NCBI RefSeq assembly: GCF_007559275.1
Contig: NZ_VMHK01000003.1
Location: 62,001-126,000, forward strand
Direction: 5' to 3'
Source of the DNA: Bifidobacterium apousia
GTDB taxonomy: Bacteria > Actinomycetota > Actinomycetes > Actinomycetales > Bifidobacteriaceae
DNA: 64,000 bases
Under the pieces are notes generated by a model, which saw only the letters and a list, made by a program, of their open reading frames with translations, ran no database searches and was not told the origin of the DNA. Below are positions 4,163 through 61,797 of the stretch, in pieces. The position numbers and the translations under genes were made by a program. How positions within the stretch are numbered: the first letter of the stretch is position 1; every line of letters starts with the position of its first letter.

Positions 4163-6040
4163 TCAGCCCTCCTTCTTGGCGGCGGCCCGGATCTTGTCCT
4201 TGGTGTCCCGATCCTGGGTCTGTCCAGTGCTCAGGGCTGCGATGAAGGCCTCCTGGGGCACCTCGACATGTCCCAGCATCTTCATGCGCTTCTTGCCGGC
4301 CTTCTGCTTCTCCAGCAGTTTGCGCTTGCGGGTGATGTCGCCCCCGTAGCACTTGGCCAGCACGTCCTTGCGCAGGGCGCTGATGGTCTCCCGGGCGATG
4401 ATCCTCGACCCTATGGCCGCCTGGATGGGGATCTCGAACTGCTGGCGCGGGATCAGTTTGCGCAGCTTCTTGGTCATCATCACCCCGTAGGCGTAGGCCT
4501 TGTCCTTGTGGACGATGGCTGAGAAGGCGTCGATCTTCTCCCCCTGGATGAGGATGTCCACCTTGACCAGGTCGGCGGACTGGGTGCCGTCGGGCTGGTA
4601 GTCCAGGCTGGCGTAGCCCTTGGTCCGGCTCTTCAGCTGGTCGAAGAAGTCGAAGACGATCTCGGCCAGGGGCATCCGGTAGTGCATCTCGACGCGCTCG
4701 GGGCTCAGGTACTCCATGGTCCCCATCTGCCCGCGGTGGTCCTGGCAGAGCTCCATGACCGGTCCGATGAACTCCTTGGGTGTGATGATGTCGGCGCTGA
4801 CCACCGGCTCCAGAATCTGACGAACCTTGCCATCGGGGAACTCGCTGGGGTTGGTCACCGTGTGCTCGCTGCCGTCCTCCATGGTCACCTGGTAGGTGAC
4901 GTTGGGAGCCGTGGCGATCAGGTCCATGCCGAACTCCCTGCTCAGGCGCTCGGTGACGATCTCCATGTGCAGCAGCCCCAGGAAGCCGCAGCGGAAGCCG
5001 AAGCCCAGGGCCACCGAGGTCTCCGGCTCATAGACCAGGGCGGCATCGTTGAGCTTGAGCTTGTCCAGGGCGTCGCGCAGTTCGGGGAACTGGGCGTTGT
5101 CGATGGGGAAAAGTCCGGAATAGACCATGGGCTGGGGGTCCTGATAGCCGGGCAGGGGCTCCTTGGCCGGGTTGGCCTCGGTGGTGACCGTGTCGCCCAC
5201 CTTGGACTGGCTGACGTCCTTGACGCCGGTGATCACGTAGCCGACCTCCCCGGCACCCAGGGCCTTGGTGGGGGTCATGTCCGGGCTGATCACCCCCAGC
5301 TCGATGGGGTCGTGCACGGTCGCCCGGCCCATCATGCGGATTTTCTGCCGCGCCTTGAGCTCGCCGTCCACCATCCGGATATAGGTGACGATCCCCCGGT
5401 AGGAGTCATAGACCGAGTCGAAGATCAGCGCCCGGGCCGGAGCCTTGGGATCCCCCTTGGGGGCCGGCACCTGGTCCACGATGCGGTCCACCAGCTCACG
5501 GATCCCCTGGCCGGTTTTGCCTGATACCCGGAGCACCTCATCCGTGGAGCAGCCGATCAGGTTGGCGATCTCCTCGGCGTGCTTGTCCGGCTCGGCTGAG
5601 GGCAGGTCGATCTTGTTGAGGACGGGGATGATGGTCAGGTCATCCTCAAGGGCCATATAGAGGTTGGACAGGGTCTGCGCCTCGATGCCCTGGGTGGCGT
5701 CCACCAGCAGAACCGCGCCCTCGCAGGCCTCCAGGGCCCGGGATACCTCGTAGGTGAAGTCCACATGGCCCGGGGTGTCGATCATGCCCAGGGTGTATTC
5801 GACGCCGTCCTTGACCCAGGGCAGGCGAACGGCCTGGGACTTGATGGTGATGCCGCGCTCCTGCTCGATGTCCATCCTGTCCAGGAACCGGTCGTGCATC
5901 TCGCGCTTGGGCACAATCCCGCTCAGCTGCAGGATCCGGTCGGCCACCGTGGATTTGCCGTGATCGATGTGGGCGATGATGCAGAAGTTGCGGATCAGCG
6001 ATTGGTCGGTGAATCCTGGTTGGTTCTTGGCTTCCTGCAC
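4163..6040 (-). CDS. lepA: Elongation factor 4 (back-translocating GTPase LepA)
   Basis: A 625-residue translational GTPase acting on stalled ribosomes. The G1 motif is AHIDHGKST near residue 25, G3 is DTPGHVDF near residue 92, and G4 is NKID near residue 146. EF-G-like domains II, III and V follow, and the Lys-rich LepA C-terminal domain ends in KKEG. Length is usual for the family. The start is GTG at 6040, preceded by GAGGAG about 9 nt upstream. The gene is divergent from rpsT, the common bacterial arrangement, and is followed closely by hemW. Confidence 0.96.
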
Positions 6041-57440: not shown

Positions 57441-58433
57441 TCAGTCCACCTGATGCTCGCTAGTGCCGCCCTCCAGAATGGTCTTCACGTCGTTCAGGGA
57501 GATGTTGACCATGGCGTTCACGGCGGCATCGGTGTAGAAGCCGATGTGGGGCGAGACCTCCACATTGGGCATGGCCTTGAGGGTCTCCAGGGCCTGGTTG
57601 TCGACCTTGGTTCCGCTCAAATCCTTTTCGAAGATGCCGGCCTCCCCCTCGATGGTGTCGATGGCGGCACCGGCGATGGACTTGGTCTGCAGGGCCTTGA
57701 TCAGTGCCGGGGTGTCCACAATGGGACCGCGGGCCGCGTTGATCAGGAAGGCCGAGGGCTTCATGGCATCCAAGGCCTGCGCGTTGATCAGATGGTGGGT
57801 GGTCTCGTCCAGCGGCGTATGAACGGTGACGATGTCGGCCCGCTTCAGAAGCGTGGGCAGATCCACGTAATCCAGGGTGTCCGCCAGCTCGGGGCGGTGG
57901 ACCGGATCGTTGGCGATGACGGTGGAGCCCAGGGCCCGGAAGATCCTGGCCACTGCCGATCCGATCTTGCCGGCTCCGATGATCCCCACGGTCAGGTTGT
58001 GGATCTCATGGGCCTGAAGCCCATCCCAGGTATAGTCGTCCTTGGCCTCGCGAGCGCTGGCCTCCCCCAGATGCCGGACCAGGCGCATGACCTGGGCCAG
58101 GACCAGTTCGGAGACCGACCGGGGCGAGTAGGCAGGCACGTTGGTGACGACCAGCCCGTTCTCCCGAGCGGCCTGCAGGTTGACGATGTCATAGCCGGTG
58201 ATCCGCAGGGTCAGCTGCTTGAGGCCATAGTCCTTGAGCCGCTGGTAGAGCTCGGGCTCGGGCAGGGCCGCGTGCTGCTGGATGACGATGCCGTCGTATC
58301 CCTTGATCATGTCCACGGTCTTCATCCCCAGATCGTGGTCAGTGGTATCTACCTGAATGTCATTGGCTTGCGCCCAGGCCTGAATGGCCTCCTGCTCGTC
58401 AGGGCGTACTGAATACATGAGAATGCTAGTCAT
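57441..58433 (-). CDS. D-2-hydroxyacid dehydrogenase (D-lactate dehydrogenase-like)
   Basis: A 330-residue NAD-dependent D-2-hydroxyacid dehydrogenase. The nucleotide fold GIIGAGKIGSAVARIF begins near residue 149, Arg is in LINAARGPIVDT near 234, Glu in the AIDTIEGEAG stretch near 258, and the catalytic His in VSPHIGFYTDAAV near 296. The pattern fits D-lactate/D-hydroxyisocaproate dehydrogenases that accept bulky 2-oxo acids. ATG at 58433 has AAGGA upstream. It lies 71 bp after the aminotransferase, probably one transcript. Confidence 0.9.
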   Translation of the reverse strand: MTSILMYSVRPDEQEAIQAWAQANDIQVDTTDHDLGMKTVDMIKGYDGIVIQQHAALPEPELYQRLKDYGLKQLTLRITGYDIVNLQAARENGLVVTNVPAYSPRSVSELVLAQVMRLVRHLGEASAREAKDDYTWDGLQAHEIHNLTVGIIGAGKIGSAVARIFRALGSTVIANDPVHRPELADTLDYVDLPTLLKRADIVTVHTPLDETTHHLINAQALDAMKPSAFLINAARGPIVDTPALIKALQTKSIAGAAIDTIEGEAGIFEKDLSGTKVDNQALETLKAMPNVEVSPHIGFYTDAAVNAMVNISLNDVKTILEGGTSEHQVD

Positions 58434-58504: not shown

Positions 58505-59677
58505 TCAGCCGCGATTTTGAGCGCGCATATAGTCGCCGATCCGCTCCACGGCGGTATGCAGATCCTCCATGGAGGCGGCATAGGAGATGCGGACGTAGCC
58601 TTCTCCCCCGGGCCCGAAGCTGGCTCCGGGGATTACCGCCACCTTGGCCTTACGAGCCAGGTCGTAGACGAAGCTCCAGCTGTCGCGCATGCCCTCGGGC
58701 AGTCGGGCGAAGATATAGAAGGCGCCCTTGGGATCGATCACATCCAGACCGACCTCGGGCAAGGCCTTGACCAGATAGTCCCGCCGCTTGCGGTAGGCCT
58801 CGCGCATCGGATCCGTGTCATTCATCCCCTTGGTCAGAGCCTCCTGGGCCGCATACTGGGCATTGGTGGTCACGGAAGTGATGCTGAACTCGTTGACCTT
58901 GCTGATCTGGTCAATGACATCGGCCGGGCCAGCGGCGACGCCGACCCGCCATCCAGTCATGGCATGGGATTTGGAAACCCCGCCAAGCACGACCGTCTGC
59001 TCGGGCAGGATGGTGCCCATGGACACATGGGTGCCCTGGTAGGTCAACTCGGCGTAGATCTCATCGCTGAGCACAAAGAAGCCGTGCTTGCGCGCCACTT
59101 GAGCCAGAGCCTCCAGATCCTCTCGGGCATAGGTCACCCCGGTGGGGTTGGTCGGATAGTTGAGCACCAGGGCCTTGACCGGACCATCGCTGTTTTCGAT
59201 GGCGGCCTCCAGCTTGTCCGGCTTGAGAATGAAGCCGTCATCGGAGGTGTCGACGAAGACGGTCCTGGAACCGCTCAGCTGGGCAATGGGGATGTAGAGC
59301 GGAAAGATGGGCGTGGGCAGGATGACCGTATCCCCCGGGTTGATCATGGCGGTCAGGCCCGAGAAGATGCCCCCGGTGGCTCCGGCTGTAATTACTATTT
59401 GCGTGTCAGGGTCGTAGTCCAGCCCGTACTTGGCCTGAAGATAGTCGGCCGCAGCCTTGCGAAGGCTGGGCATACCGCGACTTTCGGTGTAATGACTGCG
59501 GTTGTCCTGGATGGCCTGAATGCCCGCCTGCTTGACGTGCTCAGGGGTGAAGAAGTCCGGCTCCCCCAAAGTCAGCTTCACGATGCCGTCTATTCCGGCG
59601 ATCTCCTTGTTGAACTCGAGAATGTCGCTCGGCGCCAGAGCTTTGACCCTGGCATTCATATGATCCGCCAATGTCAT
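58505..59677 (-). CDS. Class I/II PLP aminotransferase (aromatic/AraT-PatA type)
   Basis: About 390 residues. The PLP lysine is in GGVSKSHAMTGWRVG near residue 236, Asn/Pro in NYPTNPTGV near 167, and Asp/Tyr in LSDEIYAELTY near 200. N-terminal EFNKEIAGIDGIVKLTLGEPDF (in part) is typical of lactic-acid-bacterial aromatic aminotransferases (AraT/PatA), which also accept other amino acids. The start is ATG at 59677 with AAAGGA 8 nt upstream; ATG at 59695 lacks a ribosome binding site. Preceded by a leader ORF rich in aromatic codons, which supports an aromatic substrate. Confidence 0.88.
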   Translation of the reverse strand: MTLADHMNARVKALAPSDILEFNKEIAGIDGIVKLTLGEPDFFTPEHVKQAGIQAIQDNRSHYTESRGMPSLRKAAADYLQAKYGLDYDPDTQIVITAGATGGIFSGLTAMINPGDTVILPTPIFPLYIPIAQLSGSRTVFVDTSDDGFILKPDKLEAAIENSDGPVKALVLNYPTNPTGVTYAREDLEALAQVARKHGFFVLSDEIYAELTYQGTHVSMGTILPEQTVVLGGVSKSHAMTGWRVGVAAGPADVIDQISKVNEFSITSVTTNAQYAAQEALTKGMNDTDPMREAYRKRRDYLVKALPEVGLDVIDPKGAFYIFARLPEGMRDSWSFVYDLARKAKVAVIPGASFGPGGEGYVRISYAASMEDLHTAVERIGDYMRAQNRG

Positions 59678-59746
59678 TGGCTTGTCCTTTCCCATGCGGT
59701 TACTACAACCATTGTCGCTGGTGCTGCCCTACCGACTATGCGGTGA

Positions 59747-59846
59747 CGATGCACGGGAAATGCTGTCGACGACTGCAGGGCCGGTGGGTTCCGATCCGTG
59801 CAACCGTTTTTACAAGGCACGCGGCGTCACAGATCGAATCCGTGCC
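59747..59846 (-). promoter_or_regulatory. Putative attenuator: four alternately pairing RNA segments
   Basis: In the minus-strand RNA: segment 1 GGCACGG (59846-59840, over the Trp-Trp-His codons of the leader), segment 2 CGCGTGCC (59823-59816), segment 3 TTGCACGGATCGG (59803-59791), segment 4 CCCGTGCATCG (59757-59747). 1:2 gives 6 bp, 2:3 gives 5 bp, 3:4 gives 7 bp. This is the order expected of ribosome-controlled attenuation. No T run follows segment 4, so control might be translational or Rho-dependent. Confidence 0.45.
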
Positions 59847-59874
59847 ACCAATAGGTAAATCGTGTGCCCTGCAT
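59827..59874 (-). CDS. Aromatic leader peptide MQGTRFTYWWHGFDL
   Basis: A 15-codon ORF with a perfect AGGAGGT Shine-Dalgarno 6 nt before its ATG, better than that of the downstream gene. Five of 15 residues are aromatic (Phe, Tyr, Trp, Trp, Phe), including a Trp-Trp pair, and it ends 149 nt upstream of an aromatic-type aminotransferase. Composition, strong ribosome binding site and position match amino-acid-sensing leader peptides such as TrpL or PheL, but I know of no named family for this one. Confidence 0.6.
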   Translation of the reverse strand: MQGTRFTYWWHGFDL

Positions 59875-60046
59875 GCTGAAACCTCCTGCGGAATCTACAA
59901 TCAGCATTAGCAATTAGCGTACAGCGAAATTTCAGCAATCCAAAAAGGCGACCATTATTTGACCAAGCCATTGCGTGATTATGGACACGATAGGCATCTG
60001 AAGAGCCACACCAGACGGCGTAACCCCCTTAATTGCAGAGACCCGC

Positions 60047-60991
60047 TCATTCCTCAAGCAGACGCATGGCAGCCTGGGAATCCGTAATCAGCACGTTGGC
60101 ATAGCCGCCGAGAAGCGCCGCACGCATGGATGCGATCTTGGAAGGCCCTCCCGCCACCAATATGGAGCATGGCTTCTTGCGCAACCGATCAAGCTGTATC
60201 CCCACCGTTCTCGCGTCAATGCCATCATCCGCGATGGAGCCGTCGGCAGCGATGAACCGTGAAAGCACATCGCCGACAGCCTTATGCTGCAGCATGGTGA
60301 TCTCTCTGCGGGAGAGATATCCCAGTTTGAAAAGCATGGCATCGTCACGAACGGTTCCGCAGGTAAACACGGCGATATCGGTCCGTTCACCCTGACGAAC
60401 GATCTCGTCTATGAAACGATCCTTGAGCACAATGTCCCGAGTCAAAGCATTGTCGAAAATGACCGGCAAGGGCAGCACTGTAGTGGTAGTGCCGAAGGCC
60501 ATGCCGAATTTCAGGGCGATATCCGCGGCATAGTTGTTGAAATCGGACGCGGAGACACTCCCCTTCAGCTGCACCACCGATACATCCTTGTGCTCATTGG
60601 GCCGCAGATGATCGGCTACGGCCTTGAGGGTCCTCCCCCAGCTGATGCCCAACCGGTCGTGATCGCCGACAATCTCAGCCAGGTAATCTGCTGTAACAGC
60701 ACCCAGTTTGTCCCTGATGGCATCTTCATCACCGGTCGAGTCATAGGCCAGCCTGACCTCGCGCAGGCCGAAAGCCACCTTGAGCTTTCTGGCCAGGGAC
60801 TGCAGATCAGCCTGGGGATCAGTGATGAGCACGCGAACGAGTCCCTCCTGCCTGGCAAAGGCCAGAAGACGCGAAACCGTGGGACGGGAAACGTTCAACC
60901 TGCGGGCGATCGCGCTCTGGCCTAACCCCTCCTCGTAGTACCAGTGGCAGACCGTGACCGCTTGATTCCTGTGCTGTTCATCGTCGATCAT
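60047..60991 (-). CDS. deoR: SorC/DeoR-type sugar-phosphate-responsive regulator
   Basis: A 314-residue SorC-family regulator. The N-terminal HTH (about residues 14-55) includes EGLGQSAIARRLNVSRPTVSRLL (in part), and the C-terminal sugar-phosphate isomerase-like domain (about 58-314) includes GISWGRTLKAVADHL and LVAGGPSKIASMRAAL. Bacillus subtilis DeoR, which responds to deoxyribose-5-phosphate, has this architecture. The start is ATG at 60991 with AGGGAAGG upstream; the frame before it is not conserved. Divergent from deoC with a palindromic operator between. Confidence 0.88.
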   Translation of the reverse strand: MIDDEQHRNQAVTVCHWYYEEGLGQSAIARRLNVSRPTVSRLLAFARQEGLVRVLITDPQADLQSLARKLKVAFGLREVRLAYDSTGDEDAIRDKLGAVTADYLAEIVGDHDRLGISWGRTLKAVADHLRPNEHKDVSVVQLKGSVSASDFNNYAADIALKFGMAFGTTTTVLPLPVIFDNALTRDIVLKDRFIDEIVRQGERTDIAVFTCGTVRDDAMLFKLGYLSRREITMLQHKAVGDVLSRFIAADGSIADDGIDARTVGIQLDRLRKKPCSILVAGGPSKIASMRAALLGGYANVLITDSQAAMRLLEE

Positions 60992-61071
60992 GAAACCTTC
61001 CCTTCTTACGGTCGTGTGGAACCAGCATGCCAAAGAGCTTCACGGCCTGCCGGCGATTGAGCATTCACTTT

Positions 61072-61085
61072 TGAACATATGTTCA
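61072..61085. promoter_or_regulatory. DeoR operator candidate TGAACATATGTTCA
   Basis: Perfect 14-bp palindrome in the deoR/deoC gap, 62 nt upstream of deoC. A TTGAAC (61071-61076) within it with TTTTAC 17 nt later may form the deoC promoter, so repressor binding would cover the -35. Confidence 0.7.
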
Positions 61086-61109
61086 TTTTAGCATTTTACT
61101 TCTGTGCAT

Positions 61110-61124
61110 TCACTGTTACAGTGA
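61110..61124. promoter_or_regulatory. Second dyad TCACTGT-T-ACAGTGA
   Basis: A perfect 15-bp palindrome with a single central base, ending 8 nt before the AAGGAGG of deoC. It could be a second operator or an mRNA hairpin near the ribosome binding site. Confidence 0.55.
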
Positions 61125-61146
61125 GGCCCACAAGGAGGTAACAACC

Positions 61147-61797
61147 ATGCAGATCAACCGCCTCATCGATCACACACTGCTCAAACCGGACGCAACGCAG
61201 ACGCAGATCGACCAGGTCATCGACGAAGCTTTGGACAACCATTTCTATTCGGTCATGGTCAATCCCTACTGGGTCGCCCACGTCCATGAGCGGGTCAAGG
61301 GGTCGGATGTCCTGACTGCCTGCGTCATCGGCTTCCCCTTGGGCGCCACCACCACGGCAAACAAGGTCGCCGAAAGCCGGGAAGCCATCGCGAACGGAGC
61401 CGATGAGCTGGATATGGTGATCAACATCGGCGAAATGGCAGGTGGCCGGGAAGACGTGGTCGCCGAGGACATTCGTGCGGTCGTCGAAACCGTCCACCAG
61501 GCAGGAAAAGTAGTCAAGGTCATCATCGAGACTGCCCTGCTCAGCGATGAGCAGATCGCGCGGGCCAGCGTGCTGGTGGCCGACGCAGGCGCCGACTTCG
61601 TCAAAACATCCACCGGATTCGCCAGCCGCGGCGCCAGTGTGCACGACATCGAAATCATCAAAGAAGCAGTCAAGGGAAGAATCCACATCAAGGCCGCCGG
61701 CGGCATTCACACCCGGCAGGAGGCCGAGGCTCTGATCAAGGCAGGTGCCGAACGATTGGGCACCAGCTCCAGCATGGCCATCATCGGCAAGGCCTGA
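61147..61797 (+). CDS. deoC: Deoxyribose-phosphate aldolase
   Basis: A 216-residue class I aldolase that splits 2-deoxyribose-5-phosphate to acetaldehyde and glyceraldehyde-3-phosphate. The fold begins IDHTLLKPDATQ; catalytic residues lie in DELDMVINIG (Asp near residue 98), VIIETALLSD, and the Schiff-base lysine in ADFVKTSTGF near residue 159, with a second Lys in HIKAAGGIHT. AAGGAGG precedes ATG. First gene of the deoxyribose operon. Confidence 0.96.
   Translation: MQINRLIDHTLLKPDATQTQIDQVIDEALDNHFYSVMVNPYWVAHVHERVKGSDVLTACVIGFPLGATTTANKVAESREAIANGADELDMVINIGEMAGGREDVVAEDIRAVVETVHQAGKVVKVIIETALLSDEQIARASVLVADAGADFVKTSTGFASRGASVHDIEIIKEAVKGRIHIKAAGGIHTRQEAEALIKAGAERLGTSSSMAIIGKA

Follow-up and report, generated by a model that had tools for sequence, protein, structure and literature searches.

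Organization of the Locus

The window analysed here is a stretch of 64,000 nucleotides from Bifidobacterium apousia, and its minus strand carries a small operon in which a class I/II aminotransferase gene (58505..59677, (-); Pfam PF00155) is followed by a D-2-hydroxyacid dehydrogenase gene (57441..58433, (-); Pfam PF02826/PF00389), a gene order shared with relatives. The likely start of the aminotransferase is the ATG at 59677, which was chosen from its Shine-Dalgarno sequence GAAAGGA and from alignment with the homologous locus of another lineage of the genus (L014). Ahead of it lies a short leader open reading frame (ORF), in which the ATG at 59874 opens 15 sense codons, MQGTRFTYWWHGFDL, closed by a TGA ending at 59827 (59827..59874 with the stop included, (-)), and about 150 nt of further leader separate this stop codon from the aminotransferase start. 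The leader ORF is preceded by the Shine-Dalgarno sequence AGGAGGT (59881..59887, (-)), of which AGGAGG is retained in L001-L014. An earlier note on this DNA had reported such a 15-codon aromatic ORF behind AGGAGGT, and read from the letters both its coordinates and its content are right.

Conservation in Bifidobacterium

Among the best 80 matches listed, the aminotransferases of Bifidobacterium mizhiense and Bifidobacterium sp. 7101 are 97-98% identical to that of the window, and the window genome together with this group forms what we take to be the asteroides clade, represented here by 13 loci (L001-L013, L001 being the window's own genome). The 15-residue peptide MQGTRFTYWWHGFDL is identical in 13 of 13 of these loci, own genome counted, which is far past chance. 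Over the 78 pairwise comparisons within the clade, identity amounts to 99.7% in the leader ORF and 97.3% in the non-coding remainder of the leader, compared to 81.5% for the fourfold-degenerate positions within the aminotransferase gene and 71.8% for the DNA immediately 5′ of the leader.

Four more lineages of the genus (L014-L017) carry a leader in the same place with an altered sequence; the peptide of L014 is MLQDWRFRYRLH, and those of L015, L016 and L017 end in ..RFSYWWRRLIL, ..RFSYWWRRLDL and ..RFSYWQSRRDL, respectively. Nineteen genus genomes have a best aminotransferase match of 61% identity or more, and in 17 of them the leader lies directly upstream of the aminotransferase; in G007 it precedes the next gene instead, and in G021 it was not found. 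Hence the element expected of an attenuator in the first place, a short ORF with a ribosome-binding site ahead of an operon, is present, and ORF, ribosome-binding site and aromatic codons are kept in relatives, the conservation by which the earlier note had proposed to judge its reading.

The leader of G007 (L134, 6161-6337) stands before a PTS_EIIC_2 gene, downstream of the aminotransferase, and has the core RLHVLLLR in place of RFSYWW, so that its specificity may differ.

Alternative Helices of the Leader RNA

The leader RNA of the window can be divided into six segments, all on the minus strand, that form an alternating chain of helices 1:2, 2:3, 3:4, 4:5 and 5:6. Segment 1 (59838..59849) lies over the Trp-Trp codons and pairs in helix 1:2, and segment 2 (59827..59838) covers the last codons together with the stop codon and pairs in 1:2 or 2:3. 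Segment 3 (59790..59807) takes part in 2:3 and 3:4, segment 4 (59768..59784) in 3:4 and 4:5, and segment 5 (59731..59767) in 4:5 and 5:6; the latter contains the anti-Shine-Dalgarno sequence UUUCCCGUGC at 59760-59751. Segment 6 (59688..59697), GCAUGGGAAA, overlaps the Shine-Dalgarno sequence of the aminotransferase. The pairings 1:2, 2:3 and 3:4 had been described before in this very order, with segment 1 over the Trp-Trp codons, and they are indeed found; as a description of a four-segment attenuator, however, that account stops short, because the chain runs on through 4:5 and 5:6.

Compared to shuffled sequences, the leader as a whole has no exceptional folding stability (z -1.13; 26 of 200 shuffles are equally or more stable). 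In seven aligned bifidobacterial rows, helices 1:2 and 3:4 together have 92.9% of their cells paired and four pairs with double changes; their covariation score is reached by 0 of 500 shuffles and their number of double-change pairs by 85 of 500. In the same seven rows, helices 2:3 and 4:5 together are 88.2% paired with three double-change pairs (23 of 500 shuffles), and their covariation score is unexceptional, being reached by 109 of 500 shuffles. Helix 4:5 itself has 84.3% of its cells paired, and four of its ten pairs vary through unpaired cells only, so the alignment weakly supports this putative helix. The consensus helix 1:2 is not formed as aligned in L014.

When lactobacillar leaders (see below) were added, giving 12 rows, helix 3:4 was 94.2% paired with four double-change pairs and helix 2:3 was 91.7% paired with three, the covariation scores being reached by 0 and 1 of 500 shuffles, respectively; shifting the helix partner by 1-3 columns in this alignment lowered the paired cells of either helix to 60% or less. 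A further alignment holds 72 matches of a model (A7) that was fitted to helix 3:4, whose counts there are biased toward 3:4, while 2:3 lies outside the model. Two antisense rows due to chance were kept in the covariation counts and removed for those of ORFs, codons and folding, leaving 70. In the 72 rows, helix 2:3 is 96.0% paired, with 14 double-change cells compared to 2.3 in shuffled alignments (0 of 500 shuffles), and since this unmodelled helix pairs so well and with such an excess of double changes, segment 3 is constrained to two partners. Taken together, covariation is clearest for 2:3 and 3:4, and the alternative helices are conserved; covariation in four stems had been the check suggested earlier, and of the chain 4:5 gives the weaker signal. 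Mutually exclusive conserved helices 1:2, 2:3 and 3:4, as an attenuator needs them, are therefore found, with the exception of 1:2 in L014.

Models of Ribosome Stalling

The folding of the leader was modelled with ribosomes placed on its codons, using shorter transcripts, a choice that favours the mechanism proposed below. In the window RNA ending after segment 4, with a footprint reaching to A+10, the probability of helix 2:3 is 0.80-1.00 with F6, Y8, W9 or W10 in the A-site, and that of 3:4 is 0.88 with the A-site at G12-L15. The window RNA ending after segment 3 has a sharp switch edge as well. The regulatory codons thus stand where stalling alters the predicted fold, at F6-W10 in the window. 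Stalls at G3-R5 favour 2:3 as well in the partial transcript, a ribosome on the stop codon of the window leader gives 3:4 a probability of only 0.69 (A+10) or 0.05 (A+13), and the ribosome-free partial transcript of L009 prefers 2:3. In RNA extended through segment 5, 4:5 already beats 3:4 in the window clade when no ribosome is stalled. Folded at equilibrium, the full-length RNA of the window fails to reproduce the switch: helix 5:6 at the Shine-Dalgarno sequence is present in nearly all stalled states, and because it dominates in this way the switch would have to be kinetic.

Among the more distant relatives, with segment 4 present, 3:4 wins at all or nearly all ribosome positions in L015 and L017, and at all in L134 except V14-L15; in the shorter transcript 2:3 wins at the aromatic core in L015 and L016, but is weak in L017 and does not win there. 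In 64 homologues the mean probability of 2:3 with segment 4 present is at most 0.27 and that of 3:4 at least 0.69 at every position. When the RNA ends after segment 3, the mean for 2:3 peaks at 0.82-0.83 with the ribosome at codons -8 to -6 and has dropped to 0.38 by -3 and to 0.08 by -2; with the ribosome 5′ of the aromatic zone it is still 0.58-0.68, so that the contrast made by stalling lies mainly at the downstream edge.

Output of the Window Copy

The UUUCCCGUGC of segment 5 pairs over ten bases with the GCAUGGGAAA at the aminotransferase Shine-Dalgarno sequence in 13 of 13 loci of the asteroides clade, and in L014 seven of these ten pairs of helix 5:6 are retained in homologous columns, two of them through double changes. 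Over all, 5:6 is 97.5% paired with two double-change pairs (5 of 500 shuffles), both double changes coming from the single lineage L014. Complementarity to the Shine-Dalgarno sequence taken alone is modest, being reached by 30, 14 and 192 of 1000 shuffles for L001, L009 and L014, respectively. A helix that alternates over the Shine-Dalgarno sequence of the gene to be controlled, the mark of an attenuator acting on translation, is thus present in the window, with a predicted function.

The mark of a classical transcription attenuator, an intrinsic terminator before the first gene, was found neither on the minus strand of the window between 58400 and 60400 nor in L014, and the window copy is therefore not to be classed as a transcription attenuator. 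Since no terminator was found and the chain runs on through 4:5 and 5:6, helix 3:4 itself is not the output of the window copy. Strong intrinsic terminators were located by a scan tool in L015 and in G007 (L134), and those of L016 and L017 were found by a second script, the strict scan of both having returned none; a hairpin of -8 kcal/mol or better with at least three T immediately behind it occurs in 42 of 70 homologues. In the window clade the output is probably the hiding of the aminotransferase Shine-Dalgarno sequence and not termination.

Taken together, we consider it likely that the leader is a ribosome-mediated attenuator sensing charged tRNA-Phe, tRNA-Tyr and tRNA-Trp, in which the operon would be ON at starvation through an open Shine-Dalgarno sequence and OFF when these tRNAs are charged. 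The stalling, its kinetics, the polarity and the translational output are predictions from sequence, the polarity from the order of the segments. According to this scheme, a ribosome would initiate at the leader and, stalling at F6, Y8, W9 or W10, would cover segment 1, upon which 2:3 could form and leave segment 4 free to pair with segment 5; this 4:5 pairing would keep segment 5 off the Shine-Dalgarno sequence in segment 6, and the operon would be ON. With charged aromatic tRNAs the ribosome would proceed and cover segment 2, helix 3:4 would form, and segment 5 would be free to pair with segment 6, turning OFF translation of the aminotransferase and, through coupling, of the dehydrogenase too. 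In more distant bifidobacteria and many lactobacilli, 5:6 is an intrinsic terminator instead, so that the same sensor would act on transcription.

An unchanged sensor could also act in the window clade through Rho-dependent or some other termination and not through a hidden Shine-Dalgarno sequence, as Rho was proposed for actinobacterial cys leaders that have no terminators (Seliverstov, 2005). The negative terminator scan of the window, and an anti-Shine-Dalgarno helix that is just moderately unusual compared to shuffles, would fit with this idea; however, 5:6 covers the Shine-Dalgarno sequence, and double changes preserve its pairing in homologous columns when L014 is set beside the asteroides clade, and we regard termination as a minor possibility.

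Homologues in Lactobacillaceae

A covariance model built from six bifidobacterial leaders (R1), which matches its own source sequences by construction, finds the element in 18 of 27 genus genomes. It gave only weak matches in the rest of 189 genomes of the family (14 genomes at E 0.001-1), and a single weak match outside the genus (L174, E 0.01) in 297 genomes sampled from the order. These weak matches (L158-L169 and L174) were rejected, as a Shine-Dalgarno-led ORF with at least four aromatics in eight residues is absent from the matched sites; L162 has one Shine-Dalgarno-led aromatic ORF, which lies away from the R1 match. The ORF scan behind this statement is blind to leaders of the G007 type (it misses L157), and its scope leaves the weak matches in G173 and G188 outside. 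In G017 the core pattern matches a second time (L136), within a gene resembling a transporter, and this match was taken as chance.

Besides the two bifidobacteria, the best 80 matches of the aminotransferase scan comprise 78 from lactic acid bacteria and Sporolactobacillus. In these 78 loci R1 has four weak matches (E 0.10-0.24), all immediately upstream of the aminotransferase, and the leaders found there read MSGNLNIQMNSCRYYFWFFRV (Lentilactobacillus parabuchneri), MENNCRTQLNSCRYYFWFFQI, MQLPIITQLNSRYYFWFFQS and MKIKPQTQLNSSRYYFWFFHV (Pediococcus parvulus). A second model (R2), made from twelve leaders of bifidobacteria and lactobacilli and again matching its sources by construction, finds 76 places at E 0.001, spread over 74 of the 397 Lactobacillaceae genomes searched. 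Read by eye, 71 of the 76 matches, in 69 of the 397 genomes, have aromatic leaders (e.g., ..RYYFWFF..), and the gene that follows is an aminotransferase in 60 cases, a PTS_EIIC_2 gene in seven and a shikimate gene in three, with a contig end in one; the other five matches comprise one serine-rich leader and four places with a doubtful leader or none. Among the 49 aminotransferase loci within the R2 matches, the dehydrogenase is present in 40 and a PTS_EIIC_2 match in 21. Weak R2 matches without aromatic leader, three in 105 Enterococcaceae genomes and two in 249 genomes of the order around Sporolactobacillus, were taken as chance. A second R2 match in Pediococcus (L195) falls in a coding region and was rejected; no aromatic leader ORF was found at L196 and L197, and no leader at the R2 matches L278 and L289.

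The earlier interpretation of the window as a leader attenuator is supported and at the same time understates the case, as the window holds one member of a wider family. A script that prefers a Shine-Dalgarno sequence without requiring one (L268 has none) located a leader ORF in each of the 70 aligned homologues. At least four aromatics within eight residues occur in 67 of 70, the exceptions by hand count being L014, L017 and L134. In the 64 rows that remain after six of the 70 were left out for gaps, the aromatic share, counted back from the stop codon, is 67-91% at codons -8 to -3, and no other position from -14 to -1 exceeds 23%.

These leaders bear upon which amino acids are sensed. A classical trp kind of attenuator, responding to Trp only, would account for the Trp-Trp codons within segment 1, but the better-conserved core consists of Phe and Tyr codons (R-F-x-Y in L001-L017), L014 has no Trp after this core, lactobacillar leaders mix Tyr, Phe and Trp, and stalls at F6 and Y8 yield the same modelled fold, all of which makes it improbable. 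The earlier proposal that the leader senses mainly Trp, or else Tyr or Phe, thus holds for the attenuator and is to be widened for the sensor, which spans Phe, Tyr and Trp. It is very unlikely that the ORF merely serves ribosome loading or reinitiation, by which leader ORFs can boost translation (Korolev, 2016), or encodes a functional small peptide, the RNA pairs being incidental, given that the leader stop lies about 150 nt away from the next start, that the helices covary and that lactobacillar peptides are free to vary except in the aromatic run. That the leader of the asteroides clade is a decayed relic, its regulation gone with the terminator that L015-L017 have and that was not found in the window or L014, is scarcely credible with a non-coding leader so much better kept (97.3%) than fourfold sites (81.5%).

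Several loci show related layouts. Loci of Sporolactobacillus, Lactiplantibacillus, Liquorilactobacillus and Bombilactobacillus have aromatic leaders with a different RNA layout and no significant R2 match. In ten loci (L055, L057, L058, L061, L066, L067, L072-L074, L101) the aminotransferase is preceded by an aromatic leader whose RNA is laid out differently and has no significant R2 match; in most of them a strong GUGUUUG..CAAACAC hairpin stands near the stop codon. In L291 and L292 an ORF M(D/N)LRYE(P/Q)TSWQVWYIS, containing Trp and Tyr, and a 3:4-like hairpin precede a gene, whose product has no Pfam match in L291, and form a candidate leader. In L273 (G839, ~4449-4650, (-)) the 3:4 hairpin scaffold (R2 E 1.1e-7) accompanies the leader MMQNINVNIISSSSRSTTAFV upstream of genes for a class-V aminotransferase and a 2-hydroxyacid dehydrogenase, SerC/SerA-like in our naming, possibly a serine version of the leader.

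Function and Evolutionary History

The leader also precedes genes of aromatic biosynthesis. In L281 it stands before transketolase, shikimate dehydrogenase and DAHP synthase genes (Pfam), as it does in L279 by likeness of the reading frames, and in L283 before shikimate dehydrogenase, DAHP synthase and dehydroquinate synthase genes. Two genomes have two leaders each, G659 at the aminotransferase (L242) and at the shikimate genes (L283), and G735 at the aminotransferase (L261) and at a PTS_EIIC_2 gene (L262). Its place before shikimate genes suggests that aromatic amino acids are sensed for the sake of their supply, and this reuse together with the predicted ON-at-starvation polarity would point to a role in aromatic amino-acid supply and not in the disposal of excess as aryl-lactate. 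The earlier note had tied aryl-lactate formation to aromatic supply; the sensing of aromatics in that proposal is supported, and for the operon a supply role is favoured.

No match to tryptophan synthase alpha was found in G006, G007, G017, G021 and G023, so these five may be tryptophan auxotrophs, and none to prephenate dehydratase in G023; G006, G017 and G023 keep a leader with Trp codons all the same. In such bifidobacteria, salvage, in which keto or hydroxy acids would be turned into amino acids, may fit better than the last biosynthetic step. PTS_EIIC_2 occurs in 3 of 27 genus genomes, each time at the aminotransferase locus; the PTS_EIIC_2 gene that adjoins the operon in G006 (L132, 7378-8723) has an in-frame stop.

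In a tree of 116 aminotransferase sequences, nine of the 19 bifidobacterial rows (L001, L009, L012, L014-L019) form a clade (98) inside the leader-bearing Lactobacillaceae and join L253, L255, L259, L260 and L263 (100), which among the 49 aminotransferase loci have the nearest aminotransferase (70-71%) and dehydrogenase (73-77%); the four rows of more remote Bifidobacteriaceae (L020-L023) are placed elsewhere. The tree was made by a quick method with SH-aLRT support only and midpoint rooting, has some long branches, and omits 23 of the 78 aminotransferase-scan rows (Streptococcus) and the short match L250. This nesting suggests, as the simplest history, that leader and operon moved together as a cassette from a lactobacillar lineage into bee-gut bifidobacteria, and that the terminator was then replaced by Shine-Dalgarno control on the branch to L014 and the asteroides clade.

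A more general reading, for and against which we see about equal weight, is that of a modular, horizontally mobile class of attenuators in which both ends are exchanged around a scaffold of segments 2-3-4, and which has crossed phyla with its operon into the bifidobacteria of bees. The sensor end would be aromatic in most, a serine run in L273 and a leucine-rich core in G007, and the output end a terminator in lactobacilli and the outer bifidobacteria and the Shine-Dalgarno sequence in the asteroides clade. In Lactobacillaceae it would coordinate an aromatic regulon of shikimate genes, aminotransferase, D-hydroxyacid dehydrogenase and membrane protein. A pan-aromatic leader common to many Lactobacillaceae and to bee bifidobacteria would show how food and gut bacteria set the genes beside phenyllactate- and indolelactate-type chemistry, would connect the membrane protein PTS_EIIC_2 with the metabolism of aromatics, and would offer a natural series in which a regulator swaps its terminator for translational control while its sensor is kept.

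Relation to Known Systems

Like the his- and trp-type attenuators of enterobacteria, the window leader combines an ORF of regulatory codons with mutually exclusive helices in an alternating chain, and the enterobacterial his attenuator has a six-segment layout. The window copy differs from these types in that it has no terminator, its output apparently is the Shine-Dalgarno sequence and three aromatic amino acids are probably sensed. A search with 4227 Rfam families gave no leader match at the gathering score either in the window or in 40 loci from Sporolactobacillus and lactic acid bacteria; matches elsewhere in the searched sequences were only tRNA and RNase P, and those below threshold belong to unrelated families. 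The T-box covariance model likewise had no match in the window, in L014-L017 or in these 40 loci. T-box riboswitches also sense tRNA charging, and the ileS type of Actinobacteria hides a Shine-Dalgarno sequence (PMC1262725), whereas the window leader, with no Rfam T-box match, would sense through leader translation.

The familiar cases of ribosome-mediated attenuation belong to Proteobacteria and some Actinobacteria. For Firmicutes, few leader peptides have been reported (PMC2965389; PMC5794164). The hisS/hisZ leaders of Firmicutes (PMC2965389) and the ilv-leu leader of Staphylococcus aureus (PMC5794164) encode leader peptides and have terminator output; they differ in sensing histidine or branched-chain amino acids and in preceding other genes. 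The words aminotransferase, aromatic, tyrosine and Bifidobacterium are absent from the main text of PMC2965389. For Actinobacteria, trp, cys and ilv leaders have been described, among them a cysteine leader before cbs in Bifidobacterium longum (Seliverstov, 2005; PMC1262725).

The nearest system described is the aroR leader of Corynebacterium glutamicum, with Phe-Tyr-Phe before an operon with aroF (DAHP synthase) and ribosome-mediated attenuation (Neshat, 2014, via PMC11802643), which is reported to be transcriptional and to respond to Phe and not to Tyr. The window leader, likened to it by description, adds Trp codons, precedes an aminotransferase and is of a kind common to Lactobacillaceae. 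The aldh cluster of human-gut bifidobacteria also joins transaminase and hydroxyacid dehydrogenase genes and is linked to aromatic lactic acids, but its dehydrogenase is a type 4 lactate dehydrogenase where the window has a D-2-hydroxyacid dehydrogenase, and no regulatory leader was found in the excerpt consulted (PMC8556157). In the literature searched (titles and the beginnings of abstracts, with thin coverage of subscription journals), we found neither an aminotransferase of Bifidobacterium or Lactobacillus preceded by an aromatic leader nor a description of the wider aromatic attenuator family, of which the window holds a member with altered output.

Upstream of the Leader

At 59950-59965 (-), about 91 nt 5′ of the leader start, a direct repeat TGGTC-N6-TGGTC has persisted in 13 of 13 loci (L001-L013) amid diverging DNA and may be bound by a transcription factor. 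Beyond it, immediately 5′ of the promoter region of the leader, the window carries a gene for a DeoR-like regulator and a divergent gene resembling deoC (60047-61797), both named by eye.
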